Origin: Sergeia podlipaevii
Lineage: Eukaryota > Euglenozoa > Kinetoplastea > Trypanosomatida > Trypanosomatidae
DNA: 24,327 nt
Reading direction: 5' to 3'
Assembly (NCBI GenBank): GCA_030849805.1
Contig: JASANZ010001916.1
Span: 1-24,327 of the forward strand
Shown here piece after piece: positions 1,444 through 23,816 of this stretch (its first letter is position 1; each line of letters begins with the position of its first letter). A program made the position numbers and the translations under genes. The notes under the pieces were generated by a model. The model saw only the letters and a list, made by a program, of their open reading frames with translations, had not been told where the DNA came from and searched no databases.

Positions 1444-4400
1444 ATGTGGAAGAAACTTCTCGGCCTCTTTGGGAAAGTATTGTCACCCGACAATGTTGAA
1501 CACCTTACTCAGCCCACTAGCTCACCGGGAGAGTCAAGTTCTGCTATTACTTTAACTAGTGCCACGCGCGACAGCAGCGGCGGCGGTGGCGGTGCTAGGG
1601 ACACAAACAAGGATGTAGCCACTGCAGCTGCTGAAGGTGATGACGGCGCGATCCGACATGCCGACGCGGAGAGCGTAGCAACATCAGAATATGCTGCCCC
1701 TCTGGCAACAGAGGCGACAGTATCATTGGACGATTCGGTGTTTGACTTTCTCGATGACGTCATTGCTGGCAAGACAGATAAACTTAGAAAGGAAATGGCG
1801 AAGCAGAAACTGCGGAGCGCGGCCGAAGAGACAGAAGCCAAGGTTGCTGCAGCAGCAGCTGCTGCCGCTGCCACCGCTGCTGCTGGGGGGGATGACACAA
1901 AGAAGACAAGCGGTGAGAACGACAGCATAGTAGCAGCAGCACCGAGTGTAGTAGCGGCAACCACGATGGGGAAGAACGCCACTGGTGGGGGGCCCGTGCC
2001 TGGTTCTGTCTCAGCTACTGTAGCGCCATCACCGAGCGCAACTACACGCTATGTCAGCTCCGCTGCGCGTTCGCTACAAGAATATGAACTTGTGGCCTAT
2101 CTAGGCTCTGGCACCTTCGCCGAGGTCACCCTTGCCCGCCTGAAGGTGTCTAATCAGCTATTTGCAATCAAGAAGATTTCCAAGCAGAAGGTGAAGGAGG
2201 AGGGCTGTGTAGAGCGCACCTTTACAGAGCGGCAGCTGCTAGCTAATCTGAGGCATGCTTTCCTAGTGCAGATGCATCGCGCCTTTCAAAGCCGCACGCA
2301 CTTGTACCTCGTTCTAGACTTCGCTCAGGGTGGTGACTTGTTCTACTTTAATCAGGAAAATCTGTGGGTGAAGGACATGCAGCGTAGTCTACGTAGGATG
2401 AAGTATCCCTACTACGGCACCGCTGCGGGTATGGCAGTGGCGAACAGCAGTTATGCTCAACACATGCCCTACCCGGGGTCGGTGGTTTCGCTACTCCCTC
2501 CTTGGACAGCTCTGAACAGCAGTGGCGGTGGCGCTGCTGCTGCTGCTGCTGGTTGTAGTGGTGAGCGTGAAGCTCAAAGGCGAACGCCTTCCTCTGCCAG
2601 TGCTAGACATCTACGCCGGAGTGGATGCAGCTTCAGCGGGGGCATCGCTAGTCTCAAAGGCGAAGACAGCGCACGCATGGGGGATGTGTGGGAGGAGGGA
2701 AGCAACAGCACCTTTCCTGCCGATGCTGGCGGCGCTAGCAACAGTACTACTACCATTCTTAGCAAGAGCAATGCTGGTAGCTCCCTTCTTCTTGAGGGTA
2801 GCGAGCGGCACCGCGTACGTCGAGGGCACACATTCCATACTAAAGTGTCATCCTTGTCAACAGGGGCTACAGAAGATGATGCCCCTCTTTCTACTAGCAG
2901 GGGGAAGAAGAGAAGGGCTGGTAAGGGGGCTGTGTCGATCTGTGAAGATGCAAATGTAACCGCCACCGCCATTGCGAGTACTGCGGAGACAACAACCAAA
3001 TCGCGGAGGAAACTTCCTGAGTCAATCATCTGTGGCAGCACGGGAGGTCTCGCGGCGCGCGCTGGTGCAAGTGCAAGTGCCACCACGTTTGGCACAGCGC
3101 TCAAGCGCAATCTTCACAGTAAACAGTCCGCTGGTGTGTCTCTCGTCGCAACGGTTGGCAGCACCAGCAGTAGCGGCAGCAGGGCCGCCAGGGCGGCAAA
3201 TCGGGCTCTTGCCGAGGGACAAAGGGAAAAGAAGGGAACGAAAGTTCTTCCTGCTGTGACGGTCGAGAAGGAGGAGGGGAATAGCAGAGGGGCGGAGAAG
3301 ACAAATGTAGTTCCTACTACTTCCAGTGCCATTGCCGCGGCCGCAGCGCTCATCTCTCATGAAGAGCCTTCCGGTGGTGAAGTGCCCAGCATGCATGTGG
3401 ATGAATGTGGTTGTAACAGCAGCCCTCATGTCCCCAAAACGGTTCGCTGCCATACTGTATCCTTAGAAGATAGTGCAGTAGTCAACGCCGAGCCTCGTGT
3501 TGGGACCACCTCCTCCTCAGCTGTGGCTTCGGTGCGGATAGCGGGCATGACTGCTGCCGCTACCGAGGAGGTGCCTGCTTCTATTACTGAAGCTGCATCA
3601 CATAACAACGGCAGCGGTAGCAACGCTATCGTTGCTTCCGGTATGGCAACAAGCGCGAATGAGCATCATCACCATCTCACGGCCGCCACCACAGGGGCAC
3701 CATCAAGTATTGGCACCTCCGTGCCCTCGCCTGCGACCTCGATCCCGCAAACGACCTTCAGCAGTGATGTCTTGAGTGGCATGTGCTCACCCCTGCTTGC
3801 ACGCCTTGGCCCAGCACAGGCACCTGTGGATCCGCTTAACTACTACACAACGGATGCGGTGGACGAGTTCCCAGAAGCACGCGAGACGACGGTGGACGCG
3901 GAGGGTAATGGATCCTTCTCGCCTCTCTCTGCTCGTCAGCGTCTTGGGTGTTTACGAGGCCAGCAGCAGCAGCAGCAGCACCTACCGCAATCGTTTGGGG
4001 TACGAGGACGTGAGCAGCAACAGCCACTCCTGCAGCAGCAGCCCGGGGAGGCTGGAGACATGGATGACGGCGGTGAAGTGCCGCACAGTGAGAGGGCTGC
4101 GGCTACTACTACTCCCACTACTTCTGTGGTATCATCCCCTGCGTGCTCCATCACTGCGCGTGCACTTTCAAAGCAACAAAGCAGCGCTATGAAGAAGAAA
4201 AGCCGTCGAGACGACGATGAAGAAGAAGGCGATGAAGCGAAGACGGTGAATGTGAAAGGGGAGACACCTCTCATCTTTTCTGCCATCACTTTTGCAGGTG
4301 ATAGTGAGAGTGCCACCACTGCGGCGATGACGACAGCATCCCCTATTGGCGACATGAGTCCGCCGCCACACATGCCTGTGTTCTTCACTGCTGACACAGC

Positions 4401-7400
4401 AGGTGTGGCGGAGCAGAGCAGCTCTCGCTCACGCACCAGGATGAACACACTCCCATTCATCTCCACATCGCATAGGTCTGGCAAGGCACAAGCGTCCGGC
4501 GGCAGAAACATCACTGCCAGCGCCAGCTCCGCCGCTGTCAAGCAACAAGGAGGAGACGCGATGAAGGACACAGACGCATATGGTGACTTCGTGGTGAGTG
4601 AGGAGGAGGACGAGGAGGAGGAGGAGGGAGACGCAACTAGCACCAGTGGTAACGAGAGGAGGAGTAGGAGTTGTAAAGCGACAGAAGCAAAGGGGGAGCA
4701 AGGCACGACGAATACGTCAGCAACAGAAGCGGCCACCAAGAGGCAAGCGGGCACACCACTCAAGCAGCACACGATACACCAAAATTCGCGTTCTGCTTCT
4801 CTGTCTGGCACTCCACCGCTGGCATCACACTCCCGCACCTCGACGCTCAGCAAGTCTCCTAAAAGCAGCGGTGCTGCTGCTGCTGGTGCCAGCGATAGCG
4901 CAACGACGACGACATCCCCCTCTGCTACACATGGACTGACACGGCGACGCTCGCAGCGCATGACGCGCTCAGAGGATTCGGCAGTAGGAACAAACAGTCC
5001 TGGCGAAACTGCTTTAGATAGACATAAGTCGAAGAGGAACCTCAAAAAAATCAACAACAGCTCGTTTGATGCTTGCTATGTTGAGCACAGTCCTCACAAA
5101 GGGGGTCTGCTGCGCGGCGAGCGGAAGTCTTTTAGAGGACGCCACGGCGTTTCTGCCGGTCAAACCGTGCAGGAGCTAGCAGGACCCCACATGATGGAGG
5201 GCTGCACCGTGACACTGCCCGATTTTGCCGACGACGACTCTCGCTTTCCGCTGCGGCTAGTTGCTTTTTATGCGATTGAGATGGCCCTGGCGCTACAGTA
5301 CTTGCACGCGGAGGGCTTCATCTACCGTGACCTGAAGCCGGAGAACGTTCTGATGCGACGTGAGGGACACATTATGCTCACTGATTTTGGTGTCGCCAAG
5401 TACCGTCGTGGTGCCCCTTCAGGTCGTAAGGAAGGCGCCGCTGCGGCCAACACCACCACCACCACCACCACCACCGCGACGACGAAGACGACTGAAGATG
5501 GAAACGACAACAATCGGTCTGGTGATGCCGTTGCTGCTGCTGGAGCTGCAGAAGAGGCAGAGCGTGCCACAAGTTTTAGAGGCACAGCGCACTATATGAG
5601 TCCAGAGATGCTTCAAGGACTTGTGCATGACAGTCGCACGGACTGGTGGAGTTTTGGCTGTGTCCTCTTCGAGTGGGCCAACGGCCGCAAGGCGTTCGAT
5701 AGCCCGAACCAGTTCTTACTCTTCTGCTCGATTGTGGAGGAGGACGTGAAGATTAACGAGGCAACAGACTTCAAGCTCACGGGCCTTGAGCTGCACACTC
5801 GGGTCGCGCAGATGTACTGCCAGTATGAAGACAAGCTTCAGCAGCAGCAGCAGCAGCTAGCGCATGATACACGGCGTCGCGGCAAGGACTGTGCTGAGTC
5901 ACCAAACCCGAGCTTTGCTTCTTCTTTGAGCCCTTCGTTCTTTACAGACAGTGCCGGCCACATCCATACGGCCATTACCGCTCCTTTCAGCAGCCGCTTT
6001 TCACAATCTACCTCGCAGCAACATCAGCGTTCTATCGGCGGCGCGGCGGGGGCGGCGGACCCTTCGGCGGCAGCAGCGGCGGTCATGACCGTCGCTGCGG
6101 TTGCAGCTGCGGTCTCCACAGTGTCAGCAAACGCTTCTCCCACAAACGTGTCTTTTCAGGTGGCTCCTGACGGCACTGTTGCCACCGCGAGCGCCACGAC
6201 AGCAACTCCAATTAGTGCAGCGACGCTGCAGCCGCGTGAGCGTGATGTGTTCTTGCGTCAGGCGCTAAGTGAGATGGAGGAGGCGCGAGACTTGCTGCGA
6301 GATCTCATTTTGCGTGTGCTTTGTCGAGACGTGGAGCACCGCTTGTGTGGCGCGGACGTGCTCGAGCACCCATTTTTCACCTGTCAGTACATCACCTCTC
6401 AGCTCTACTGCCCACGCACAGTGACACTACAGGTCAGCAATAACTCGTTCGCACAGGCAGCGGCTGCATCGCTGAGGCTGGGAGGCAGTGTTGGTGCCTC
6501 CGAGATGCCGCTAGGAAGCGCTGCCGCAGCCTTTAGCAACAGCTTTGCGTTTCTTTCCTCCATGGCGTCGCGGTCGCCGCGAATAACGCCACTCAGCACG
6601 TATGCACACAAGGAAGGCGGCTATAGTGAGAGAAATGGACGTGACAAGCAGCAGCAGGAACAACCCGTGAGTGCTCGCGAGCCGTCGCTCTCTGGGGGAC
6701 GTGCACAGGACAATGCGAGCATCACCTCCAGGCTCTCCGGGGCTGATGAAGAAGAAGGAGAAGAGGAGAAGCCCATCACAGTCGAGGAGAGCGCTGCGGA
6801 GCGAACGGTGAGACCAGAGGCGTGGAAGGAGCTCTTCACATCTTTGAGGCTTCAGGCCTTGTACATACCACGGCTGCGCGCGCGCGATGACCTGCGCTAC
6901 TTCCCCAGTGCTGTCACAGCGACTGGGTTAAGCGCTGCTGTCGAGCAGCAAAAGGCCCTCAGCGAGGCGAAGGAACAGAAGCGGCGGTTGGTGCGCAAGA
7001 CGATCCTTCAAGCTGCGCAGGCTCAGATGAAGGCAGAGCAAGACGCCATCGTAGCAGCGGAGGCCTTCTCTCGGCAGGAGAAATCCTTCTGCTCAACACC
7101 TTCGCCTCTAGCCACTCCTACAAGTAGTACCGCAGGTGCGTATGCTGCAGCTACGGCGACACTGCAAAAAGGCAACAATGGCGATCGTGCCAGCGCATCA
7201 GAGGACACCCGAGCGTCGATCGCGGCAGTTTCTTCGGAAGCAATTCCGCAAGCCGCTCCTTCGCTCGCTGGGAAGAATATTGATGACGATCCGAAGAGGA
7301 TAGAGGTAGGAAAAGGGACTGCTGAGAGCAACAACACTGTGTCTGATTCGGCAAAGTCACCAGAAGTGAGTGCAGCATACATAGCGATGAGGGACGAGAA

Positions 7401-10400
7401 GGTGAATCACATCTCCGTGTCATCGCCAACGCAACAGGATGCCAGCACAGACAAGGAGTTCCCTCCCTTGTCCTTGTCTTTTCCTCCACCCCTCTCTGCT
7501 ACTGCTATACTTGGTAAGAAGAGCAGTGGCTCCACAGTAGTGCACAGTGACCCAAGCAAAAATGCTGCGGAGAATGAACATGAGGAAAGCGATGAGAAGG
7601 GTGGCGGTGCCCGCACAGAGGATACGGCAGCCCCGCTTCCACACCCGCTTGCCTCCCTCGGTGTGCTGCGGACAACGAGCAGTGATGAGTCGAACAGTGC
7701 AACAACACCTCTGACGCTGCACACAACACCACCGATAGTAGTCACAAGTATTCTTTCCCCAACTGTCGTGCTGCGCCAGCGAACGACGATGACGGCGGCA
7801 GGCGCCAGCGGCAATAACAACGGCGGCAGCCAACGTGGTGGTGGAGGAGGAACGATTACGTGGGCGGATGGCGTTACGCATGCCACGACGTCACGCACTA
7901 GCAGTACTTCCCCTCCTGCGACATCGGCTGTACGAGGCACTTCGTTGTCACCAACCGCAGCACCAATTCGATTCAATGCACCCCCGAGCTTCCTCAACTC
8001 CCCAGAGGAAGAGCACGCGCTCGGCTCCGTGAAGCTCTCCTTATCCTCAGTACAGCGCTCTCTCTCTGACGACGATGACACCCAGAGCAGCAGTGGACTT
8101 GCCATCGCTACCGCCGAGCATGATGAGAGCGGCGTAAGCACCGCCATCACCATGGCGGATGCGACGCAGGACGAGGTGAACGCAAATCTACTTCGCTTCA
8201 CCACAAATCTCGAGCAAAGCGTTATCACTACCCCTTCAGGGGATGATTCTGCCCTCGCAAGTCTTAATGTTTCCCCCATGCGTATGCCGAGGGATGCGTT
8301 GGCGGTGACTGGGCGTGGCAGCTCTCACACAAACGTCAGTGGCGGTGGCAGCGGGAAGGAGGAACTAGATCTTTCTGCGAACGACTTGATGGCAAGGACG
8401 GCTATCTTGCCTCAGGAATTCGTCGCCGCCGCGCTTGCCGCTGCCGCTGCCGCTGCCGCGCACAACAATAGCAGCACAATGAATATTCAGAGTGCCTCCC
8501 ATGGTGGCGCAGGCGGTAACACACTCACCACCACCACAGCGGCAGAAGCTACTAACGGTGGTCAGGTGAGCACTGAACCGTCCTACTCTCTGGCAAACAC
8601 AGGGCGTGACGGGAATGCTGGTACTGCTGAGACTCAAGGTCTAGGCGATACCGGCGGCGGCGGTGTCTCAGCTGCCGTTGGTAGAGACAGGATAGGAGAG
8701 AATAACCACAGCAATGCCTCAGCGATGCTGGCAGCTGCAGGAGGGGGTTACTATGAGTGTGATGCGCTTGAAGATATTGCAGAGGAGGAGGAAGAAGAAG
8801 AAGCGGCGGTGCCGGTGGGGAAGCTGACGGCGTATGAAACGTGCCCCGCTTCTTCTGTGGAGAAGAATGAAAAAGAGAGTATCCTTAATGAGGGAGGCAA
8901 CCAGCAGCAGCAGCAGCAACCGCAGCTGGAGGAAGAGAAGCCAGAATTACAGAGCTGTGACGCTTCTGCACTAGTTGCACTGCCGAGTGTACTCCCTGGC
9001 ATGGTCAGTTCCGCCGCGGCCGACGCTGCTCAGGATGTCAGCAACGAGACTTCCTCCTCGACTTCCCCTTCCGCGTCGACCACTCATGAGGGCCTTACCA
9101 CTGTCCCGCCAGGGCTGCTACCAGTGACATTAACAGGCGAAGCGCAGCTCAGCGAAGGCGAAGTGAAAAGGTGTGGTGAAGCGCCAGACAGGCGATACGA
9201 AGGAGAAGGAGAAGAACCGAGAGAAAGCAGCACCCACACCGAGAAGGGCAGGAACACAGGTAAGCCTTACCACATGGATAGCAACAACAGCAATGACAGT
9301 GGTGTAAGCGCCAATGAGAAGGAAGGAGACACCACCTGCACAGATAGCAGGGAAAGTAGTTTTTCCTCCAGCGTCAGCGTGGATGCGCTGGCAGGCACGC
9401 TGCGTCATGACATGTCGGACGGAGCTGTCTCTTCGAAGCAACACAGCCCTTACACAACCTCCTCCAGGGGTCCTCTTTGGGGGTCCCAGCTCTCCTCAAG
9501 CGGTGTGAAGTCACCTCAGCAACAGCAGGAACAAGAAATCGACGACGAAAGCGCAGGTACGGCGGAGAGAGAAAAGAAGAGCAACACTAACGATCTTTCC
9601 GTTGTTGCTGCCGCGATTGCCTCAGGATCTGCAGAGGTGTCTCATCAAGTTGAAAATAAAGAAAATATGGAGCCCCCCTCACTGGAGTTGCCACCTGAGC
9701 TCATCAGTGAGAAGCATGAAGCAGTAGTAGCAGCAGCCTCTTCAATGATAGAAGAAAGTACTCAACCTCTCAGCATGGCATTTGTCGCGCCACCTACCGT
9801 CACTGGCTCCTCCACCTCGCCTTTATACTGTAGTAGCAGCAGCTGTGCTCCTCCTGATCCCTATCCCTCTCGTTTCTCGGACCCGAGTAAGACGCCGTGC
9901 ACGCCTGTGAGCCACAGCAGCAACAAGGATACAGTTTCTTTTCACGGAGAAGGGGGAGGTGGTAGCGATGATGACGATGGCTACAACGAGGACGATGATG
10001 AGTGGAGTGACGAGAAGGACGAGGAAGGGTCTGGCGACAGCCTATACACTAGTGAAGGGGAAGAGGATGAAAAGTCAGAGTGCGTAGGGACCGAGGAGGA
10101 GGAACTGGCACACACAAACAGCACAGGCAACTTTGAAGGCAGTGATGAGGAATACGACTGTACGGACCGGAGCAGCACGTTCGCGAGTGAGGAGGCCGAA
10201 GAGGATGATGACGACGGCAGCAGTACTAGCAGCAGCAGTAGCAGCACTGAACTCGGTCTCGTTCAGCATGACGCTGAGCGGTTATTCAAGAGGTTTCATC
10301 GCTCTCTTGCCAAGTTCTCCCCCGGTATGATAGCAGCCGCTGCAGCGGCAGCCACGCAGCGCGCAAACACCGGCAGCACAGAAATGAGTGAGAGAGAAAC

Positions 10401-11895
10401 ACGTGGTTCTGGCCAGTGCAACGCACTAGGTAGCAGCAGCCCCGTCGCGGACGGACGGAAGGAAGAGGGGGAGGACTGTTGCAATGATGACGCCAGCGGT
10501 GCTCCAAGTACACAAGCTGAGGGAGGTATGATGGGTTATGGTGGCGTGGGTAACACCGTTGGAGCCTACTGGGACAACATGCTCCCACTTTTCCGCCACT
10601 ACACTGACTCCTTCAACAGCTCCCGCTCGCTCCAGCAAGGTACATTGCAACAGCAACAGCAGCAGCAGCAGCAGCAGCGAGGGATGCATGTTCCACCTTC
10701 ACAACGTCGTCGCCGGCGCTTTTTGGACGACACGAGCCTTTTTGAGAGTAACGCAACACGTACTGGGCAGCAGCCGTACGCAATAGCGGCGCAGAACGCG
10801 AGAGACGCTCTTGGCATGTCGGCCTTCAACAATACTTCTGCGAACACAGAAGCCCTTGAAGATGCCGGCGAGTGTGCGCTAGACTTCAACTACACCTCGC
10901 CCTTGAACACACTCCATGGCGTCGCCTACGACGTGGAGGACGAGGTGTACCGCAGCGCGGGATGTGGAGGGAGTAATAGTAGTAGTGCCTTGGAGTCCAC
11001 ACAAGCGTCCAATCCTGCTCTTCGGCGCCGAGCGATGGCCACTGCACCGACTGCTTCGGTTTTGTCTTCCACCTCCTCGGTAGGCAACGTGAGTAGAGCT
11101 GCTGGAGCGCCGCCACAGCAGCAGCAAGGCCCGCCACGCCACGTAGCCGCTCACGCAATCTCTTCATTGCCTTATCCCCAGCATGAGCAGCAACAACTGC
11201 CGTACGTTACGTCGCGACGCAACAGCAGCAACGATAGAGCAGCAGAGGAAGAAGAAGGCGCGGGTGGACCTTCTATGGCACACCTGTCCCTCTCCAGCGC
11301 CTCCAACGATGGCGCTGGCGGGTGCTTATGGCAGCAGCCTGGGTTCTCGCCAGGTATGTTAGGTACAAGCCCAGTTATTTCCTCGCAGCTGTATGGCAAC
11401 AGCGAAAACGTCGTCCTGACACCGTTGCCGCCTTCGTCGACGACACCACTGATGCCAGCCGGAGGAGGAGGAGGAGGAGGAGGGACGAAGCCTTCAGCGT
11501 TTACAACGACAGACACTCGCATGCCGCCTCGTATGGCACTGCAGCCCGGTCTGATCCCTTCCACCACGAGCGACTCGACTACCTCCAAGGAGATGGGCTC
11601 GCTCGATAGGACAGAGGGCTTGCTAGGGAGGACACGCAGGTCCATTGCGGACCCTGGTCAAGACTTTCTCGGTTATTCCTTCAATTGTAGGCCGAACCTT
11701 TGGGGAGCTACCAGCGGTGTTCCACGAGTGCCTAGCACCAACTTGGATGAGAAGAGCCCTTTCGGCAACGAAGCCTCGTTCAGTAGCTTTGATCACTATC
11801 AGAACTTTTCCTTTACTTCTCCTGCTGTGATGGAGCAGTACTATAGCAAAAGTGGGACAAGCAAGAATGGGGGTGGAGGAGGAACGAGCACATGA
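1444..11895 (+). CDS. Giant AGC-family serine/threonine protein kinase with split catalytic domain
   Basis: This 3483-residue protein carries all key elements of an active kinase. The glycine loop is GSGTFAEV at 221-228, the ATP lysine K243 and the helix C glutamate E262. The catalytic loop YRDLKPEN is at 1294-1301 and DFG at 1314-1316. SPE is at 1386-1388, DWW at 1400-1402, and the final lobe ends near 1646. The YRD loop, the hinge DFAQGGDLF (292-300) and tail elements place it in the AGC group, which phosphorylates Ser/Thr using ATP. About 950 residues are inserted between hinge and helix E, about 50 in the activation loop and about 150 before the last helices. An AGC-tail-like segment follows at 1790-1822, then a charged helical stretch to about 1880. 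The remaining C-terminal part is mostly low-complexity A, S, T, G, Q and D/E, with an FLGYSF motif at 3408-3413. The N-terminus (residues 1-14) can form an amphipathic helix. The exact subfamily and its substrates are unknown to me. ATG 1444 is the first ATG after the predicted acceptor. Confidence 0.9.
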   Translation: MWKKLLGLFGKVLSPDNVEHLTQPTSSPGESSSAITLTSATRDSSGGGGGARDTNKDVATAAAEGDDGAIRHADAESVATSEYAAPLATEATVSLDDSVFDFLDDVIAGKTDKLRKEMAKQKLRSAAEETEAKVAAAAAAAAATAAAGGDDTKKTSGENDSIVAAAPSVVAATTMGKNATGGGPVPGSVSATVAPSPSATTRYVSSAARSLQEYELVAYLGSGTFAEVTLARLKVSNQLFAIKKISKQKVKEEGCVERTFTERQLLANLRHAFLVQMHRAFQSRTHLYLVLDFAQGGDLFYFNQENLWVKDMQRSLRRMKYPYYGTAAGMAVANSSYAQHMPYPGSVVSLLPPWTALNSSGGGAAAAAAGCSGEREAQRRTPSSASARHLRRSGCSFSGGIASLKGEDSARMGDVWEEGSNSTFPADAGGASNSTTTILSKSNAGSSLLLEGSERHRVRRGHTFHTKVSSLSTGATEDDAPLSTSRGKKRRAGKGAVSICEDANVTATAIASTAETTTKSRRKLPESIICGSTGGLAARAGASASATTFGTALKRNLHSKQSAGVSLVATVGSTSSSGSRAARAANRALAEGQREKKGTKVLPAVTVEKEEGNSRGAEKTNVVPTTSSAIAAAAALISHEEPSGGEVPSMHVDECGCNSSPHVPKTVRCHTVSLEDSAVVNAEPRVGTTSSSAVASVRIAGMTAAATEEVPASITEAASHNNGSGSNAIVASGMATSANEHHHHLTAATTGAPSSIGTSVPSPATSIPQTTFSSDVLSGMCSPLLARLGPAQAPVDPLNYYTTDAVDEFPEARETTVDAEGNGSFSPLSARQRLGCLRGQQQQQQHLPQSFGVRGREQQQPLLQQQPGEAGDMDDGGEVPHSERAAATTTPTTSVVSSPACSITARALSKQQSSAMKKKSRRDDDEEEGDEAKTVNVKGETPLIFSAITFAGDSESATTAAMTTASPIGDMSPPPHMPVFFTADTAGVAEQSSSRSRTRMNTLPFISTSHRSGKAQASGGRNITASASSAAVKQQGGDAMKDTDAYGDFVVSEEEDEEEEEGDATSTSGNERRSRSCKATEAKGEQGTTNTSATEAATKRQAGTPLKQHTIHQNSRSASLSGTPPLASHSRTSTLSKSPKSSGAAAAGASDSATTTTSPSATHGLTRRRSQRMTRSEDSAVGTNSPGETALDRHKSKRNLKKINNSSFDACYVEHSPHKGGLLRGERKSFRGRHGVSAGQTVQELAGPHMMEGCTVTLPDFADDDSRFPLRLVAFYAIEMALALQYLHAEGFIYRDLKPENVLMRREGHIMLTDFGVAKYRRGAPSGRKEGAAAANTTTTTTTTATTKTTEDGNDNNRSGDAVAAAGAAEEAERATSFRGTAHYMSPEMLQGLVHDSRTDWWSFGCVLFEWANGRKAFDSPNQFLLFCSIVEEDVKINEATDFKLTGLELHTRVAQMYCQYEDKLQQQQQQLAHDTRRRGKDCAESPNPSFASSLSPSFFTDSAGHIHTAITAPFSSRFSQSTSQQHQRSIGGAAGAADPSAAAAAVMTVAAVAAAVSTVSANASPTNVSFQVAPDGTVATASATTATPISAATLQPRERDVFLRQALSEMEEARDLLRDLILRVLCRDVEHRLCGADVLEHPFFTCQYITSQLYCPRTVTLQVSNNSFAQAAAASLRLGGSVGASEMPLGSAAAAFSNSFAFLSSMASRSPRITPLSTYAHKEGGYSERNGRDKQQQEQPVSAREPSLSGGRAQDNASITSRLSGADEEEGEEEKPITVEESAAERTVRPEAWKELFTSLRLQALYIPRLRARDDLRYFPSAVTATGLSAAVEQQKALSEAKEQKRRLVRKTILQAAQAQMKAEQDAIVAAEAFSRQEKSFCSTPSPLATPTSSTAGAYAAATATLQKGNNGDRASASEDTRASIAAVSSEAIPQAAPSLAGKNIDDDPKRIEVGKGTAESNNTVSDSAKSPEVSAAYIAMRDEKVNHISVSSPTQQDASTDKEFPPLSLSFPPPLSATAILGKKSSGSTVVHSDPSKNAAENEHEESDEKGGGARTEDTAAPLPHPLASLGVLRTTSSDESNSATTPLTLHTTPPIVVTSILSPTVVLRQRTTMTAAGASGNNNGGSQRGGGGGTITWADGVTHATTSRTSSTSPPATSAVRGTSLSPTAAPIRFNAPPSFLNSPEEEHALGSVKLSLSSVQRSLSDDDDTQSSSGLAIATAEHDESGVSTAITMADATQDEVNANLLRFTTNLEQSVITTPSGDDSALASLNVSPMRMPRDALAVTGRGSSHTNVSGGGSGKEELDLSANDLMARTAILPQEFVAAALAAAAAAAAHNNSSTMNIQSASHGGAGGNTLTTTTAAEATNGGQVSTEPSYSLANTGRDGNAGTAETQGLGDTGGGGVSAAVGRDRIGENNHSNASAMLAAAGGGYYECDALEDIAEEEEEEEAAVPVGKLTAYETCPASSVEKNEKESILNEGGNQQQQQQPQLEEEKPELQSCDASALVALPSVLPGMVSSAAADAAQDVSNETSSSTSPSASTTHEGLTTVPPGLLPVTLTGEAQLSEGEVKRCGEAPDRRYEGEGEEPRESSTHTEKGRNTGKPYHMDSNNSNDSGVSANEKEGDTTCTDSRESSFSSSVSVDALAGTLRHDMSDGAVSSKQHSPYTTSSRGPLWGSQLSSSGVKSPQQQQEQEIDDESAGTAEREKKSNTNDLSVVAAAIASGSAEVSHQVENKENMEPPSLELPPELISEKHEAVVAAASSMIEESTQPLSMAFVAPPTVTGSSTSPLYCSSSSCAPPDPYPSRFSDPSKTPCTPVSHSSNKDTVSFHGEGGGGSDDDDGYNEDDDEWSDEKDEEGSGDSLYTSEGEEDEKSECVGTEEEELAHTNSTGNFEGSDEEYDCTDRSSTFASEEAEEDDDDGSSTSSSSSSTELGLVQHDAERLFKRFHRSLAKFSPGMIAAAAAAATQRANTGSTEMSERETRGSGQCNALGSSSPVADGRKEEGEDCCNDDASGAPSTQAEGGMMGYGGVGNTVGAYWDNMLPLFRHYTDSFNSSRSLQQGTLQQQQQQQQQQRGMHVPPSQRRRRRFLDDTSLFESNATRTGQQPYAIAAQNARDALGMSAFNNTSANTEALEDAGECALDFNYTSPLNTLHGVAYDVEDEVYRSAGCGGSNSSSALESTQASNPALRRRAMATAPTASVLSSTSSVGNVSRAAGAPPQQQQGPPRHVAAHAISSLPYPQHEQQQLPYVTSRRNSSNDRAAEEEEGAGGPSMAHLSLSSASNDGAGGCLWQQPGFSPGMLGTSPVISSQLYGNSENVVLTPLPPSSTTPLMPAGGGGGGGGTKPSAFTTTDTRMPPRMALQPGLIPSTTSDSTTSKEMGSLDRTEGLLGRTRRSIADPGQDFLGYSFNCRPNLWGATSGVPRVPSTNLDEKSPFGNEASFSSFDHYQNFSFTSPAVMEQYYSKSGTSKNGGGGGTST
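10648..10677 (+). repeat. CAA/CAG repeat encoding ten glutamines in the kinase
   Basis: Ten consecutive glutamine codons, the last seven of them CAG, lie in the kinase C-terminal region. Shorter glutamine tracts of the same kind occur near 3961, 5839 and 8902 in the same gene. They look like products of replication slippage kept in frame. Confidence 0.85.
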
Positions 11896-12759: not shown

Positions 12760-14583
12760 ATGTCGAGCGCTGCTTCGTGCAAGGAAGTCAGTTTCCTGGA
12801 CGCGCTCAAGATGAGATACGGAGCAGAGGACGACATCAACCAGTACGACTCCTCCGCCTTCCTCGTTGGTGACTCCAAGCGCAGACGCAACAAAACGTGG
12901 GAGATGGTGGGGATGGAAAGCACTCGACAGAAGCAGAGCCGCTATGATAGACTTGTGCATGTAGTGCTACGCAACCTCGGCATAACTGTCGCCGTGAAGG
13001 CAAGTGAGAAGGCCAAGGAAGAGGAAGAAGGAGGTAGCAACAGCGCTGCTGCGGGTGCGGCCTCCGCCACCACCATCACCACTGCGTCAAGGGACGAACT
13101 GGCGCAGGCAAACATGCGCTGCTTGCAGGAGCTTGACCTGAGCGAGAACGTAGGCCTATCGTTTGAGGAAATCAGCAAGCTGCTTGCTTACTTCTCTGCG
13201 CTGGAGATTCTGCAAGTCTCCGACTCTCCGCAGCTGCTGTTGCAGGCCACTGGGGTTACCGCCATGTCATCCACGCACATCACGAAGCTCGTGTTCAACA
13301 ATATCGGCTTCCGCTCTCTTTTTCAGCTCAGGCAGTTGGTTGATCTGCCTAACCTGCTCGAACTCCACCTAGACAGTAACGGACTTGAGTCCTTCGAGTT
13401 CTTCGCAAACAGTGAGGAGGAGCAAGCTTCCCGTGCGCGCATGTCAGCGAAGAAGAAAGGCAACGATGACGATGCGGCGGAAAAAGACAAGCAGTGGCTG
13501 TCCATGTCCAACGTGACGACGCTCAGTCTTGCCCACAATCGCATCTCTACGTGGGGAAGGGGGAGTGGCCTCGCGCGCACCATCGCCACGGCGTTTCCGA
13601 AGCTGTCACGACTCTTCCTCACCGACAACGTCCTCCCGAACTTGATCCTACCCTCTCGTCTTGTCACGCCTCTTCCCTCTCCCCCGTCGTCACAGCAGAC
13701 GGAAGGAAGCCCAGTCGGTGAGGACGCGGCCACGCCACTACCACCGGTATCACACGTGGCGGAGCTGATCACAAAGGAAGAAGTCGAAGCAGATGCCAAA
13801 CTGCTGGAGGAACTCGCCTTCCTTCATCCTTTGAAGCTGCTTTGTCTGAACGACAACGCTGCCATCACCGACCCACGCACGATCGACGCGGTTCGTATTC
13901 TCTGTCCTGAGCTGGAGGCGTTCCGCATCACATATGGCGCGCTTCTGCCAAGGTGGAACGAAACGCTGAGCCGCATGTTCGTGGTGGCTTCGCTCCCCAC
14001 CATAACACTGCTAAATCGAGGCCAAGTTCGGCCCAAGGAGCGCCTTGACTCTGAAGTATTTTACGTTCAGAGAGGACTCGCCAAGCGAGAGAAGGAGAAG
14101 ACGGCAAGTGCCGCTACCGGCGCCGATGGCAATAGCGTCGCATCAGACGAGCCGGAGTACCCACTTCTGGACACACTTCAGGATAAGTATAAGGACCTAG
14201 TGCTATCTATCTACCGCGAAGGCACAACAGCGAGCAGTGGCAGCGGTGCGGAAAGCGGTGCGCACGTGATGCTTGACGTCACGCTTCATTGCGAAAACCA
14301 CTACAAACCTTCTTCCGCCTCTGGTGCTGGCGGCGGTAGTGAAGGCACTTCCATCCCTACTGTGCGGAAGCAGCTCCCCAGCAACCTCACAGTTGGCAAG
14401 CTCAAGACACTTATCAAGATGACCTTCCAGATCGATCCGACGAATCAAGATCTCAGCTATCAGACTGGGGATGCCGAGGTTCTTCAACGGCCTATTGCGT
14501 TGGACAATGAGATGGAGTCTCTGGGCTACTACGGCGTGTGTGACGGAGCCATCATCCACGTCCGTGATACCTCGGTCCGGTAG
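12760..14583 (+). CDS. TBCE: Tubulin-folding cofactor E-type protein: LRR plus ubiquitin-like domain, no CAP-Gly
   Basis: TBCE works with other cofactors to assemble and take apart alpha/beta-tubulin dimers in the cytosol; its CAP-Gly domain binds the alpha-tubulin C-terminus. This 607-residue protein begins at the segment that follows CAP-Gly in TBCE: FLDALKMRYG (residues 12-21), then a W-E-M-V-G-M-E-S segment near 47-54. Leucine-rich repeats span about 120-400, for example LQELDLSEN, LLELHLDSN, VTTLSLAHN and LSRLFLTDN. The LRR cap LLNRGQVRPKER lies near 418-429, and a ubiquitin-like fold covers about 500-605. The computed frame opens at TTG 12745; I chose ATG 12760, the first ATG in that frame after the stop at 12730-12732. 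Low-complexity loops interrupt the repeats near 85-107 and 305-345. TBCEL, a relative that also lacks CAP-Gly, is the main alternative, but the N-terminal segment resembles TBCE more. Tandem TAG codons end the frame. Confidence 0.78.
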   Translation: MSSAASCKEVSFLDALKMRYGAEDDINQYDSSAFLVGDSKRRRNKTWEMVGMESTRQKQSRYDRLVHVVLRNLGITVAVKASEKAKEEEEGGSNSAAAGAASATTITTASRDELAQANMRCLQELDLSENVGLSFEEISKLLAYFSALEILQVSDSPQLLLQATGVTAMSSTHITKLVFNNIGFRSLFQLRQLVDLPNLLELHLDSNGLESFEFFANSEEEQASRARMSAKKKGNDDDAAEKDKQWLSMSNVTTLSLAHNRISTWGRGSGLARTIATAFPKLSRLFLTDNVLPNLILPSRLVTPLPSPPSSQQTEGSPVGEDAATPLPPVSHVAELITKEEVEADAKLLEELAFLHPLKLLCLNDNAAITDPRTIDAVRILCPELEAFRITYGALLPRWNETLSRMFVVASLPTITLLNRGQVRPKERLDSEVFYVQRGLAKREKEKTASAATGADGNSVASDEPEYPLLDTLQDKYKDLVLSIYREGTTASSGSGAESGAHVMLDVTLHCENHYKPSSASGAGGGSEGTSIPTVRKQLPSNLTVGKLKTLIKMTFQIDPTNQDLSYQTGDAEVLQRPIALDNEMESLGYYGVCDGAIIHVRDTSVR

Positions 14584-15328: not shown

Positions 15329-16315
15329 ATGCTTATGAGGAAAGTACGACTCTCTTGTCAGCTAGCGTGGCAGCGAAGTGCCCTCCTAGCAACGGACATG
15401 CATTTTCATAGTCGGCCCCTCACCTTAGGACCGTCAGACCCTTCCTCCTTCTCTAGCATTGCTGGCAGTGATGGCAGTGGTGGCGGTGGACGTGGCTTCG
15501 GGAGAGGCAGAGGTGGCGGTGGGTTCCGCGGGAGGGCCCGTGGGGGAGGTGCGCCACCTAGTGGACGCCCACAGCACGAAGGCGGCAGTGGGCACAAAAG
15601 TCTGCGTGGCCCCGTGAAAGATCGCTACCCGCCTGTGTCGACTGACCTCTCAGACCCACGCAGACGCCTTGCCGTTCTTATTGATGCCACTAATACCAAT
15701 CTTCTCTCTTCGTCGTCGTCAGCTGGGTCACGTTCAGCGCTAGACTGGAACTCACCTTTCTTCTCTACAGTGCTGCCAGAGGTGCTGAAGGTGGGCACAC
15801 CAGTGTTGCTCCGCGTCTTTGCTCATCAGCTGCCTTCAGAGTGGGAAGCTTTGATAGCAGGGGGAGGAGGAGGTGCTACTGCTACTACTAGTAGTAGCAG
15901 TGGCGGTAGTGCTGCGCAAGGAGGCTCTAGCGGAGCCCCACACACGGTGCAGGTCAGTCCGCGTACCGGAGCGACCAATGAAGAACGTGCGGCAGCGGCA
16001 GCAGCACCGCAGATGGCACAGGCTGAGTTTTTCAGAGTTGAGAGGTTCATCCCTATTCCAATGCAGATCGAAGCTGATGCACAGCACCTGTTTGACTTTC
16101 GCGAACACAACAAGATTGAAGGTGTGTGTTACGTGTGTAGTGAGATCGATCGGTCCATGTACGAGTCGCTCATGCGTGAGCAGGTGGGCGGCAGTGCTGC
16201 TGTTGGGAGCCGTAACCAGGCGAATGCCGCGGCTTTCTTTAATCAGTATCTTGTGGATGAACTTGGGATGGTGAAGGAGGTTGTCGTGGATGGCAGATCG
16301 GCGGATGGATCGTGA
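15329..16315 (+). CDS. Probable NYN/PIN-like domain protein with Gly/Arg-rich region, possibly mitochondrial
   Basis: The 328-residue protein starts with a basic segment that has no acidic residue for over 20 positions and includes RKVRLSCQLAWQRS, resembling a mitochondrial presequence. A Gly/Arg-rich block with RGG-like units (about 47-80) is typical of RNA-binding proteins. The C-terminal half looks like a NYN domain, a PIN-related ribonuclease fold. It shows LAVLIDATNTN (D119 and N122), an acidic helix IEADAQHLFDF (D250), and a strand VCYVCSEID (D274) in the place of the family's S-G-D-x-D motif. A Gly/Ser/Ala loop of about 60 residues is inserted in the domain (about 175-230). RNA cleavage or binding is an inference. 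The frame begins at TTG 15326; ATG 15329 is the likely start, with ATG 15335 two codons later as an alternative. The domain could also be a degenerate, non-catalytic NYN. Confidence 0.55.
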   Translation: MLMRKVRLSCQLAWQRSALLATDMHFHSRPLTLGPSDPSSFSSIAGSDGSGGGGRGFGRGRGGGGFRGRARGGGAPPSGRPQHEGGSGHKSLRGPVKDRYPPVSTDLSDPRRRLAVLIDATNTNLLSSSSSAGSRSALDWNSPFFSTVLPEVLKVGTPVLLRVFAHQLPSEWEALIAGGGGGATATTSSSSGGSAAQGGSSGAPHTVQVSPRTGATNEERAAAAAAPQMAQAEFFRVERFIPIPMQIEADAQHLFDFREHNKIEGVCYVCSEIDRSMYESLMREQVGGSAAVGSRNQANAAAFFNQYLVDELGMVKEVVVDGRSADGS

Positions 16316-17117: not shown

Positions 17118-20100
17118 ATGGGGTTTGTTGACCGTGGTGGTGGTCGCGAGGCCAAGGGCTCAAGTCTGCGCCGCTCCAAGAAGAACCCAGGTGCCCCCTC
17201 CACTCGCAACAAGGGAGCAAACAAAAAGCATATCTCACCTCCAACCCGTGCCACCCCCATCCCACCGCCCGTGTGCTTGCCGTTTGTGAAGGAACTCGTG
17301 AAGGAGCTTCGTCGCCAGCGTGGCAGCAGCGAGGCGGTCGCAGATGACAAGGAGACACAAAAGCAACAAGAGGAAGGCGTCGATGCAGCGGCGACGGAGG
17401 AGACGTCAACGCCGAGCGTGGTTGCGCTCGTCAAACAGGTCCGTGCTCGGCAGAAGGACGCCGTCAAGGACGAGGCCGGTTGTGCACTGGCAACAGCGAG
17501 AAACATCGATGCCGCTGTTGCGATTTTGTCGCGTAAACTGGAAGACGATCGTGAGGGCATTTTCCGGCGCGCAGTCGAAGATGGCCACCTCGCGGCGATG
17601 CTGTGTTGGTGTAACGAGATGGAGAGGCAAGATGCGATGCTCGAGGCGTGCCGGAGCCACAGCACACACCTCTCTACTACTACTACTACTACTACTACTG
17701 CTGCTGCTGAGGGAGTCAAGAAGGTGCGCTTCCAGGTCAGTGAGGAAAGTGCTGGCAGCGGTAGCACCGCACTTGATGCCAACGTGTTTGCCTCATCAGA
17801 CAAGGCTAGCGGGGATTGTGCTCTGTATTGTCTGATTGGCGTCCACGTCAACAACATTGATCGAATGAATAAAAAGTTTCACGAGCAGTGGATCACGGAC
17901 ATCACGAGCCAGGGCAAGAACTCGCAGGTTCTTGGCATTCTCTCTGGGTTGAACCTGAGCAGAGACGCAGGCACACACTTTGCCCAGGAATGGATGCTGC
18001 GCGAGTGCTGGCGCGTCGCGGGTGAACTCCGTCTGCCTCTCGTGTTGCACGTGTACTCCACCGGCGATGAGAGCAGCATGCAGAGCACTGTGGACCGCGC
18101 GGCGGAGCTGCTCACGGAGCTCATGGTGGTGGCGACGACACGGACCGGCGCACCCGCCACCGCCAACCCCACTGCGGTGGTATTGTACAACGGTATCAAG
18201 GTGCTCGCCAGCTCCGCCGCGATGCGACACCTCGTCAAGACACACCGTCCCGCCTCTGCCGTGTCTGTCGCTCTTAACGCCGTCGCAGCTTCCTCCCACA
18301 CTCCTCCAGTGCCTTCTCTGACAGCGGTAGCAGGAGTTGAAGACGAAGGCACGGCGAAGATTCCATTCTACGTCATTGCCTCCGCGGAAGGCCTCACAGA
18401 GGCGCGGGAGGAGGAGGGGAAGAAAGAAGAAGGGAAAGCAGCCGCGGAGGGCGTCCCTGCCGGAGAAGGAGAAAGCAGCAAGACAGAGAAGGCGGTGGCG
18501 CGCAAGGACATGGAGTGGGTTGCGCTGCTCCCCAGCCTATTGGAGGAGGAAAAGTGGGACGAGGAAGACAGCAATGGTGAGGACACAGCAACGGAGACTG
18601 CTGTCGTTGCGCTCTCGCAGCTCATTGTTGGCAGCGGGTCGCCGTGGGGGACCCCGCAGAACATTGAAGATCCGTACCTGCGCACGCTGCCCAACGAGCC
18701 TGGTAACTACCAGTACGTGATGCGAGGTGTCTATGATGCCTTGGAGGCCAACAGCGCGGAGAAGAAGGAAAAGAAGAAGGAGGAGGTGGCGAAGTCTAGC
18801 GCTGAGCGGCTGTCCTTCGAGGAGGTGGAGGATGTGTGCCTGGGTAACTTCTTGAGTGTCTTCTTTGCGGATTTCATTGCCCAGCAGGTCTCTGGCAATG
18901 GGGCCGATAACACAACTACGATTTCCACTAACGCTGCAGGGGAGGAAGAGGAGAGCGATAGCGATGGCGACGGCAATGAAGAGGCCGCGCAAGGCACATC
19001 TGCGCTAAAGCACCACCACTACCACGACTGCGGTGGCTTTATACTCCCCAGCATTACCGGGATCATGTCCTTGCCTGGTGTGTCTACTTCTTCCGCGACT
19101 TACACATGTCGTGTATGCCGCGCCAGTTTGTTTCGCGAGTGTGCGCTGGCAACCCACTCACGTGAGGCCCCACGTGTGCATCGAGGCGGGAAGAAGAATC
19201 AGCAGCAGCAGCAACAGAAGCCAAGTAAAGTGGCGGAGTCTCAGAAGCGCAAGGGCAAAAGCAAAAAGGGTGAGCGTGGAGCTCGAACCCCATCGGAGAG
19301 CGATGACGATGAGTTTCACCACGGTGAAAGAGGAGAGGAAGACGACCCTGATTACGCCAAGTGCGGTCAAACACTCGTCCTGTGCGCGGTTCAGAGGGAC
19401 GATAGTGGCGAAGATGGGGACGAAGACAGCGATGATGATGATGATGATGACTCCGGTTCCCACCTTCACATCATCGGTGAGCTTCGCGAGAAGAACAATA
19501 AAAGCAAGAAGAATAGTGGAGGTATTTGTGTTGAGGCGACGCAGGCGGTGTGCGGTGGATGTGGCACCAAGATTGGCAATGTGCGTGAGAACAGTCCCTG
19601 CCATTGTGGAGTGAAGCTGCCCGGAATCACAATCCGCGTCATGCCCGCGAAGGTGGACAGGTGCGAAGCGGCCATGGTTGCATCAGGGACAAATATTCGT
19701 GTTGCTAAGCCTCTTGCTAGCAGTAGTGACGCCGCAGATGCTGGGAAGAAGGTGGCAGCAGCAACAGCAGCAGCATCAGCTGGGCGTGGCCCGGCTGGAA
19801 ATGCCAATGACGATGACGATGATCTGCAGGCGTTGTTAGAGCAGGCAGCGCGTGAGCGGGAGGAACTTGAGCGGGAGAAGGAGACCCTTGAAGCACGCGG
19901 CAACGATGACGACGACGGGAATAGTAAAAAAAAGCGCGAAAAGAAAAAGAACGTCAAGGCGAACAATCGGTCTAACTTCACACACTTCAGAAACAAGGAT
20001 TTTGCCCCGCGGCAGTCGCGCGCAGAGAAGCTGGCTCACCAGCGCGAGATTGAATCGCTTAACATCAAGAAGGATGAGGAGGCGTCGGGTAGTGACGATG

Positions 20101-20270
20101 AGAGTGACGGATCATCCTCCGCGGCGGCCTCTGCCTCTGAGGACGAGTCTGGCAGCGAGACAGAGACTCAGCAGAGGCCTCAGACGATGGCTCCGCGACG
20201 GGCGAGGAAGAAAGACAAGAAGCGGCAACAGCAGATGCAGCAGTACCGCGGTGGCGAGGACTCCGACTAG
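17118..20270 (+). CDS. TatD-type pseudo-hydrolase fused to a YVH1/DUSP12-like zinc-binding domain
   Basis: Residues about 125-580 of 1050 follow the order of TatD-family TIM barrels: IDAAVAIL (130-137), GVHVNN (241-246), GILSGLNL (273-280), PLVLH ending at H311, GSGSPW (505-510), an NEP...YV segment and a closing EDVCLGNF helix (N577). TatD enzymes are metal-dependent nucleases, but here the H-x-H pair, the second H of the GIHPH motif, the GEIGLD glutamate and the final aspartate are all replaced; H311 remains. Residues about 662-845 match the zinc-binding tail of YVH1/DUSP12: CRVC (664-667) with H680, C749, CGGC (812-815), CHC (828-830) and a closing KVD. No phosphatase signature is present. 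In YVH1 this tail supports 60S ribosome assembly. Acidic runs, a Lys-rich nuclear-signal-like patch (937-945) and a basic C-terminus (about 1028-1040) suggest a nucleolar protein; this is inference. ATG 17118 is the first ATG after the acceptor. Confidence 0.78.
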   Translation: MGFVDRGGGREAKGSSLRRSKKNPGAPSTRNKGANKKHISPPTRATPIPPPVCLPFVKELVKELRRQRGSSEAVADDKETQKQQEEGVDAAATEETSTPSVVALVKQVRARQKDAVKDEAGCALATARNIDAAVAILSRKLEDDREGIFRRAVEDGHLAAMLCWCNEMERQDAMLEACRSHSTHLSTTTTTTTTAAAEGVKKVRFQVSEESAGSGSTALDANVFASSDKASGDCALYCLIGVHVNNIDRMNKKFHEQWITDITSQGKNSQVLGILSGLNLSRDAGTHFAQEWMLRECWRVAGELRLPLVLHVYSTGDESSMQSTVDRAAELLTELMVVATTRTGAPATANPTAVVLYNGIKVLASSAAMRHLVKTHRPASAVSVALNAVAASSHTPPVPSLTAVAGVEDEGTAKIPFYVIASAEGLTEAREEEGKKEEGKAAAEGVPAGEGESSKTEKAVARKDMEWVALLPSLLEEEKWDEEDSNGEDTATETAVVALSQLIVGSGSPWGTPQNIEDPYLRTLPNEPGNYQYVMRGVYDALEANSAEKKEKKKEEVAKSSAERLSFEEVEDVCLGNFLSVFFADFIAQQVSGNGADNTTTISTNAAGEEEESDSDGDGNEEAAQGTSALKHHHYHDCGGFILPSITGIMSLPGVSTSSATYTCRVCRASLFRECALATHSREAPRVHRGGKKNQQQQQQKPSKVAESQKRKGKSKKGERGARTPSESDDDEFHHGERGEEDDPDYAKCGQTLVLCAVQRDDSGEDGDEDSDDDDDDDSGSHLHIIGELREKNNKSKKNSGGICVEATQAVCGGCGTKIGNVRENSPCHCGVKLPGITIRVMPAKVDRCEAAMVASGTNIRVAKPLASSSDAADAGKKVAAATAAASAGRGPAGNANDDDDDLQALLEQAAREREELEREKETLEARGNDDDDGNSKKKREKKKNVKANNRSNFTHFRNKDFAPRQSRAEKLAHQREIESLNIKKDEEASGSDDESDGSSSAAASASEDESGSETETQQRPQTMAPRRARKKDKKRQQQMQQYRGGEDSD

Positions 20271-22229: not shown

Positions 22230-23816
22230 ATGGCCGATCGAGTCTCCCCTTCCGCTGCTGCTCTAGCGCTTATACGCTTGCCGCTAGTCCCGCCATCTGC
22301 CTTTACCTCAAAGCAGCTTCGAGACAACAACAATACATACACCAGCAGGGCCTCTGTGGCCTCCACCACACAAGGAGCCGCTGCTAACGCTATCACGGGA
22401 GGGCAATCAGCTGTCGGGGGTTTGCCGTCTGGCAAGCGTAAGGCTGACGGCATCACCGCCTTTGCAGCCTACTCAGACCGGCTTCTATGTGATCCTACGA
22501 ATTCTATTTATGTCTACGGCAAGTATGAGTACAAGTACTCCGTCACGGACTCACAGTCGCACGCGCATGTGGAGCGGCTCGTGAGGCGGATGATGAAGGA
22601 GGCTCTGGATCAGTACGACGCCTCTGTAAATTCGTTTTTGGCGATGCCAGAGGAGGTGCAGCATGCACACGTGTTGCGTGGTGTCCCGGCTCAAGTGCTG
22701 CCAGCCATGCAGCTGGCGCCAAGGCATCGAGGCAGCCTTCCTGGAGCCGGGCAACGCGCCTCTTCGCGATCACGCGCGCTATCCCTGACCTCCACTGCGG
22801 TGCCGCCTCCACAAGGAGGTCCAGCTGGCGGCTCTGACACCGCCCATCACTCGCCTCTCTCCAGGTCTATGCTCGCTGCTGCCGCTGCTGCTGTCGAGGC
22901 ATCTACGACTAGTGCAGGCGGGGTGGGAGGTAGTCCGCAGATGGCGGCCACCGGGTCTCCAGGCAGCTCACAGAGTGTCGTTGCCAATATTAGTATTCAC
23001 ACGGTGCCACGTGTGACAGAGGATGAGGCATTTAATGCTCTACGGAAGTTCTGGCCCTCACATGAGTCAGTGGCGCTTGCCGCGGAGAAGGCCGCCCTTG
23101 AGGCGGAGAGGAGTCCCATCGCTGCCAAGAGAAAAAACAGGAATATGGATACCGGCGCTGCCGGCGCAAACCCCCTTGGTGGTGTAGAGAAGGATGGAAA
23201 TGCGCGCAAAATGAAGAACGTGAACATTCTCGTCGATTCGCAGGCGATGGAACGCAAGCGGGAGGCAGAACAGTTGCAGACACTTACATACCCCAAGGTG
23301 AAGTTGGTGATTGACCTCGTGGTCTCTCGTAAGTCCCTAGGAGACTCCCCGACAAAGAGCAAACCGTATCGGCTCGCTCAGTATTTATACAAGCATGTCA
23401 CCCGCCGCTACGCCACCTCAGTTTCAACAATCTGCATCGGCATGACGGACGCCAGTGTGAAACTTGCCTGCCGCGATGTACTTTTTCCCTTTCGCCAGCA
23501 TGCGACCATCCCTGGGATCGGTACTCCCAGCCAGCTCTACGGCAGCAGCGGCGGTGGTGGCGGCATGTCTAGTGGAAACAATAATAATAATAGCAATACA
23601 ATGAATAACAACAATACACTTTCTGGGACTCTCAGCTACGGTAGTCCACGTAGTATGAGCATAAGGATGAGAAGTGGGTCAGCGTCGTTTCCGCTCGCCG
23701 CCACGATGCCGATCTCGACGCTGCCGCTGTGTACGCGCCTGCCGCCGGCGATGCCGGAGCTTCTGGATCAGAGTCGTTTGTTCATATGTTTCCATCGCAA
23801 CAGTGGAGAAATGTAA
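22230..23816 (+). CDS. Unrecognised 528-residue protein
   Basis: I do not recognise a family. Two blocks look structured. The first (about residues 73-150) has DGITAFAAYSDRLLCDP, an aromatic stretch YVYGKYEYKYSV and a helix HVERLVRRMMKEALDQY. The second (about 357-425) has VKLVIDLVVSRK, RLAQYLYKHVTRRY and a mixed segment ending in DVLFPFRQ. A charged helix with FWPSHESVALAAEKAALEAE lies between them (about 274-293), followed by a K/R-rich patch. The linkers are low-complexity, with S/P/G and A runs (about 165-255) and an N/S/G run (about 436-465). No signal peptide, membrane segment, zinc site or catalytic signature is evident. Codon use and composition match the neighbouring genes, and the frame starts at the first ATG after the uORF, so I am confident it is a real gene. 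Confidence 0.8.
   Translation: MADRVSPSAAALALIRLPLVPPSAFTSKQLRDNNNTYTSRASVASTTQGAAANAITGGQSAVGGLPSGKRKADGITAFAAYSDRLLCDPTNSIYVYGKYEYKYSVTDSQSHAHVERLVRRMMKEALDQYDASVNSFLAMPEEVQHAHVLRGVPAQVLPAMQLAPRHRGSLPGAGQRASSRSRALSLTSTAVPPPQGGPAGGSDTAHHSPLSRSMLAAAAAAVEASTTSAGGVGGSPQMAATGSPGSSQSVVANISIHTVPRVTEDEAFNALRKFWPSHESVALAAEKAALEAERSPIAAKRKNRNMDTGAAGANPLGGVEKDGNARKMKNVNILVDSQAMERKREAEQLQTLTYPKVKLVIDLVVSRKSLGDSPTKSKPYRLAQYLYKHVTRRYATSVSTICIGMTDASVKLACRDVLFPFRQHATIPGIGTPSQLYGSSGGGGGMSSGNNNNNSNTMNNNNTLSGTLSYGSPRSMSIRMRSGSASFPLAATMPISTLPLCTRLPPAMPELLDQSRLFICFHRNSGEM

Follow-up and report, generated by a model that had tools for sequence, protein, structure and literature searches.

The window analysed here is a 24,327-nucleotide stretch of Sergeia podlipaevii DNA (contig JASANZ010001916.1), which carries on its + strand, at 17118-20270, a single open reading frame (ORF) of 1050 codons with an ATG start. 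The encoded protein joins a TatD-type barrel to a zinc module that, as judged from profile comparisons, is of the YVH1 type, a paralogue of the module at the C-terminus of YVH1. This architecture is real and conserved, and it extends beyond the kinetoplastids; the protist family that shows it has no name of its own in Pfam, NCBIfam or the literature searched. The parts of the gene are as follows.

17118..20270, + strand: whole ORF, TatD barrel plus YVH1-type zinc module, 1050 amino acids; relatives have the same start and end motifs.
17118..17195, + strand: N-terminal motif MGFVDRGGGREAKGSSLRRSKKNPGA, residues 1-26; found as a loose pattern in the family, with the predicted local distance difference test (pLDDT) mostly < 50.
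17505..18863, + strand: TatD-type barrel with long inserts, residues 130-582; from Pfam, the predicted model and Foldseek.
17946..17948, + strand: G277, at the position of the metal-bridging Glu of active TatD proteins (family alignment).
18048..18050, + strand: H311, a retained metal-ligand His (family alignment).
18186..18188, + strand: Y357, replacing the second metal-ligand His (family alignment).
18636..18638, + strand: G507, replacing the active-site Asp (family alignment).
19095..19661, + strand: YVH1-type zinc module, residues 660-848; from profile matches, the match of the relatives' profile to YVH1, and the ligands.
19944..20009, + strand: C-terminal motif KKNVKANNRSNFTHFRNKDFAP, residues 943-964; found as a loose pattern in the family, also where the zinc module is lacking.

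A TatD barrel, a YVH1-like zinc module and the lack of a phosphatase domain had been proposed from the letters alone (the sequence-only reading), and all three were borne out. Pfam matches TatD_DNase to the 1050-residue protein with an E-value of 1.8e-13 (best stretch residues 131-317) and finds nothing else above cut-off, nor any phosphatase domain at E <= 10; the TatD matches in NCBIfam fall far below their cut-offs. The predicted model of the whole protein has a mean pLDDT of 64.8, with values mostly > 80 in the barrel core and lower in the barrel inserts, 83-93 in the zinc core blocks and 61-78 around C749. Foldseek returned seven PDB matches to this model at E <= 0.001, all of TatD type (E 5.5e-8 to 1.8e-6). 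CRVC (664-667), H680, C749, CGGC (812-815), CHC (828-830) and KVD (845-847) lie exactly where the sequence-only reading had placed them, and the zinc ligands are C664, C667, H680, C749, C812, C815, C828 and C830, in a module interrupted by low-complexity inserts at about 688-742 and 762-797. What that reading had missed are the motifs at residues 1-26 and 943-964 and the loss of catalytic residues from the barrel.

The relation of the module to YVH1 is carried by sequence profiles. A profile of 16 TatD-linked modules searched against the PDB gave yeast YVH1 as its best match (E 3.3e-8), the best non-YVH1 match reaching only 0.037, and hhalign gave 98.9% for the comparison of the TatD-linked profile with that of the stand-alone (mini-YVH1) modules. 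The latter finds 90 of the 114 proteins of the family described below at E < 1e-3, the window protein at 1.4e-5. Taking modules matched at both ends only (78/114 TatD-linked, 33/36 of the stand-alone modules also described below), all eight zinc ligands are retained in 78/78 and 33/33, respectively, in the same order as in the YVH1/DUSP12 zinc domain (PDB 6n8m chain Y). The K-x-G behind the second CxxC is likewise common to YVH1 and 78/78 TatD-linked modules, as is the closing V-(D/E) to most of them. In contrast, YVH1/DUSP12 has a phosphatase domain where the TatD-linked protein has none, its module is not joined to a TatD barrel, and it carries tryptophans at 290, 319 and 329 that are found in 0/78 TatD-linked modules.

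Structural comparison is less partial to YVH1, and it would fit a zinc domain of the Yippee/Mis18/MsrB/cereblon kind, of the fold named beta-tent, gained independently of YVH1 and resembling it at the level of fold only. VIA-align gave Z scores of 8.7 for Mis18 and 8.5 for MsrB1, tied with 8.3 for YVH1. Foldseek of the isolated module, which counts against a YVH1 origin, found no match at E <= 0.001, placed bacterial cereblon at the top and ranked YVH1 23rd (E 0.35); Pfam detected Yippee-Mis18 weakly in 5 of the 16 modules (best 1.5e-4) and offered no YVH1-type family for any of the 16. We nevertheless consider an independent gain unlikely, given the distance between 3.3e-8 and 0.037 in the profile search and the further ligands (H, C and CxC) common to YVH1 and 78/78 modules; YVH1 also aligns over 113 of 128 residues, though with a root-mean-square deviation of 5.1.

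An initial search gave 53 relatives among 7992 scored candidates, those with names coming from Leishmania, Porcisia, Leptomonas, Phytomonas, Trypanosoma and Bodo. A profile search of the same number of candidates gave 76, including Ochromonas danica, a stramenopile. The two together, with the window protein, make a family set of 114 proteins, of which P0001-P0038 are a 38-protein subset. The zinc module is matched at both ends, in the same reading frame as the barrel, in 78 of the 114. The pairing recurs in kinetoplastids; the restriction to kinetoplastids in the sequence-only reading was too narrow, as O. danica and other relatives have the same architecture. A further 14 proteins give a partial match, and 13 of these are short, ending at or soon after the match; 22 show no zinc-module match > 5 bits. 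Eighteen of these 22 are of Leishmania/Porcisia/Leptomonas type (13 by name and 5 by tree placement), and no zinc module was seen in any of the 18 proteins of this type. The other four are a Phytomonas protein, P0031 and P0049, which are long and retain CxxC pairs, and the short P0139. In a quick tree of 58 rows, made without the near-copies P0006, P0010, P0012 and P0020 and most profile-search proteins, the module-less Leishmania-type rows (n = 14) form one clade with support 100, adjoined by the window protein, P0003 and Phytomonas.

Both ends of the protein are conserved alongside the barrel. The loose pattern of the N-terminal motif occurs in 89/114 family proteins and 37/38 of P0001-P0038, some of those without it being incomplete at the N-terminal end, and that of the C-terminal motif in 81/114 and 38/38; all 18 Leishmania-type proteins without a zinc module have both. 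We know of no described function for either motif. Judged by titles and abstract openings, none of the open-licence papers listed for TatD or YVH1 in combination with trypanosomes, with ribosome assembly or with one another concerns the pairing. Neither name occurs in the main texts of PMC13248013, PMC6411936 and PMC6562600, which deal with ribosome assembly in trypanosomatids or with the nucleolus.

In order to read the active site of the barrel, we aligned the family to L022 and L023, two TatD proteins from the same genome with all four metal-binding residues in place. In human TATDN1, Glu112 binds both metals, together with His149 and His174 at one of them and with Asp222 at the other (PMC10085689). 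The position of the bridging Glu is occupied by Gly in 110/114 family proteins and gapped in 4. The first metal-ligand His is kept in 110/114, the second in 84/114 and the GxH His in 101/114; the Asp is present in 77/114, comprising 7/38 among P0001-P0038 and 70/76 outside. The window protein has G277, H311, Y357 and G507 at the Glu, His, His and Asp positions. Hence the family has in common with the TatD/TATDN1 nucleases (1zzm, 1j6o, 1xwy) the barrel fold, GxH and the first metal-ligand His, and differs from them in having Gly for Glu, long inserts, a zinc module and end motifs.

These substitutions suggest that the barrel is probably catalytically dead, a pseudo-nuclease. Changing the Glu to Ala was the sole tested metal-ligand change that significantly lowered both activities of TATDN1, and the matching change in TATDN3 likewise lowers its activities (PMC10085689). 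Other results of the same study pull the opposite way: in TATDN1, Glu to Gln raised the activities and Asp222 and both His are nearly dispensable, and residual activity was seen in every mutant tested (PMC10085689). Loss of nuclease activity is therefore likely rather than proven. A nuclease that is still active and is guided to DNA or RNA by the zinc module and tails would accord with the dispensability of several TATDN1 ligands taken individually, with the nearly universal first His and GxH, and with the Asp retained by most proteins outside P0001-P0038; we judge it quite improbable, as the Glu that serves both metals is Gly in nearly the whole family and, in the window protein, the second His and the Asp are missing as well.

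The sequence-only reading had gone further, and had suggested that the protein may be a kinetoplastid ribosome-assembly factor in which the YVH1 module was moved to a new scaffold. A YVH1-type module does sit on a TatD barrel, but the part of the claim in which this is the kinetoplastid YVH1 relocated did not hold. With the yeast YVH1 module as query, the genome gave one place only (G000:C496, E 2.4e-9, 31% identity over 111 residues), and the window gene was not found.

Contig C496, L026 1480-1944, - strand: stand-alone YVH1 module (P0055), an ORF of 154 amino acids, found with the yeast YVH1 module as query.

Searched singly against the PDB, this phosphatase-less protein finds YVH1 at 2.4e-10. 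A 16-sequence profile of stand-alone modules reaches YVH1 at 1.4e-21, compared with 3.3e-8 for the TatD-linked profile of the same size, and its next matches, PRDM9 zinc fingers, are no better than 2.2e-4. Thirty-five relatives (among 44 candidates) are 113-214 residues long and have no barrel; those with names are from Bodo, Trypanosoma, Angomonas, Phytomonas, Leptomonas and Leishmania, and several are labelled 'dual specificity phosphatase 12' despite being too short for one. NCBIfam has no match for P0055, and YVH1 (in the main text) and DUSP12 are not mentioned in two papers on trypanosomatid phosphatases (PMC2175518, PMC2994645). No YVH1 with a phosphatase was seen elsewhere in the genome: 20 of its 21 DSPc matches were examined with 1500 bases on either side, and none has a zinc module there, though one might escape notice behind an intron, at a greater distance or at the 21st match. 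The YVH1 that we find in kinetoplastids is likely to be a zinc module alone, without a phosphatase. This would fit the mapping of MRT4 release in yeast, which falls to the zinc module of YVH1 and not to its phosphatase (PMC9404827).

A scan of 25 loci with the zinc-module profile matched only L001 and L025, both of which are the window gene. MRT4 is the protein that YVH1 removes, and it is encoded in the genome (L027, 3.3e-52 to 'mRNA turnover protein 4 homolog', 8fkr). It was the single match in a genome search with PF00466 (L10 family); ribosomal P0 did not appear in that search and is perhaps missing from the assembly or was missed in the initial look.

The residues by which YVH1 touches ribosomal RNA (rRNA) separate the two kinds of module. 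In the yeast structure determined by cryo-electron microscopy, W329 stacks on H43 of the P-stalk, F260 on the sarcin-ricin loop and R269 on H89 (PMC6393466), and F283 is a variant site from a yeast loss-of-function screen (PMC9404827). Tryptophan is present at 329, 290 and 319 in 33/33 stand-alone modules, which are paralogous to the TatD-linked ones, and at none of these positions in the latter. Phe at 260, a position beside a gappy loop, is found in 67/78 TatD-linked modules. Position 283 is F or Y in 16/78 of the TatD-linked set, and in the stand-alone set it is Y in 28/33 and L in 5/33; both sets have gaps in the R269 loop. Retention of W329 in the stand-alone protein and its loss from the TatD-linked one make the former the likely YVH1.

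The idea that the TatD-linked protein is itself the YVH1 of kinetoplastids and uses its zinc module to release MRT4 from pre-60S particles can draw on the homology of the module, on the presence of MRT4 in the genome and on the frequent Phe at the sarcin-ricin-stacking position. We rejected it, and think it very unlikely, because this genome, like those of kinetoplastids more widely, has a separate YVH1 module that matches better, and because W329 distinguishes the two sets completely; Leishmania-type TatD proteins, moreover, lack the module, yet Leishmania has a separate one. Taken together, the separate module and the lost tryptophan point to a TatD-linked protein that is probably a paralogue, keeping the zinc frame without the P-stalk contact.

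A wrong gene model or a chance motif might be suspected from the low-complexity inserts in the module of the window protein, but it hardly merits consideration, as the module lies in the frame of the barrel in 78 proteins including this one and shuffled sequences score far lower. Chance resemblance was rejected on this last ground: a zinc-module profile holding no window row gave 53.1 bits for the window protein and 9.7 for the best shuffle, and the mini-YVH1 profile gave 17.8 and 10.4 (2000 shuffles of the window protein, of which 1503 gave a score).

Collectively, these data are compatible with a protein in which a dead TatD barrel, a YVH1-paralogous zinc module and basic motifs combine to bind RNA or a ribonucleoprotein, a proposal that we regard as evenly balanced. 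The barrel, lacking a full active site, would serve as scaffold, and the zinc module and basic tails may bind the RNA or ribonucleoprotein. The target would most likely be a pre-ribosomal or ribosomal particle; this is a guess, and the most natural one given that the module has an rRNA-binding one as its closest relative and that the sarcin-ricin position is mostly kept, though the window protein itself carries His at the F260 position. Binding may occur at a site or in a manner other than that of YVH1, because the tryptophan that stacks on the P-stalk is gone.

A wider scheme, which we put forward tentatively and hold to be somewhat doubtful, is that many protists have two YVH1-type modules. 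The true one, apparently phosphatase-less in kinetoplastids, would serve the P-stalk; the second, on the dead TatD barrel, would belong to a ribosome-assembly or quality factor acting at another rRNA site, with only barrel and tails left in Leishmania and its kin. If this were so, protists would have a second YVH1-like ribosome factor. The kinetoplastids would also offer a natural split, with YVH1 reduced to its zinc module and a paralogous module placed on another scaffold without the P-stalk contact residue. The architecture has been hidden under the database name 'TatD related DNase'; its members are predicted not to be DNases.

Four other ORFs were noted on the + strand of the window. That at 22230-23816 (528 amino acids) has stretches rich in N and S, and Pfam gives nothing above cut-off for it; that at 15329-16315 (328 amino acids) has an RG-rich stretch and Gly/Ser-rich parts, with a Pfam match below cut-off only. 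A 3483-residue ORF at 1444-11895 has three stretches that match a protein kinase, of which residues 214-309 match best. In Pfam, the 607-residue protein encoded at 12760-14583 combines leucine-rich-repeat matches with a ubiquitin-like domain at its C-terminus, a domain order that is presumably that of tubulin cofactor E.
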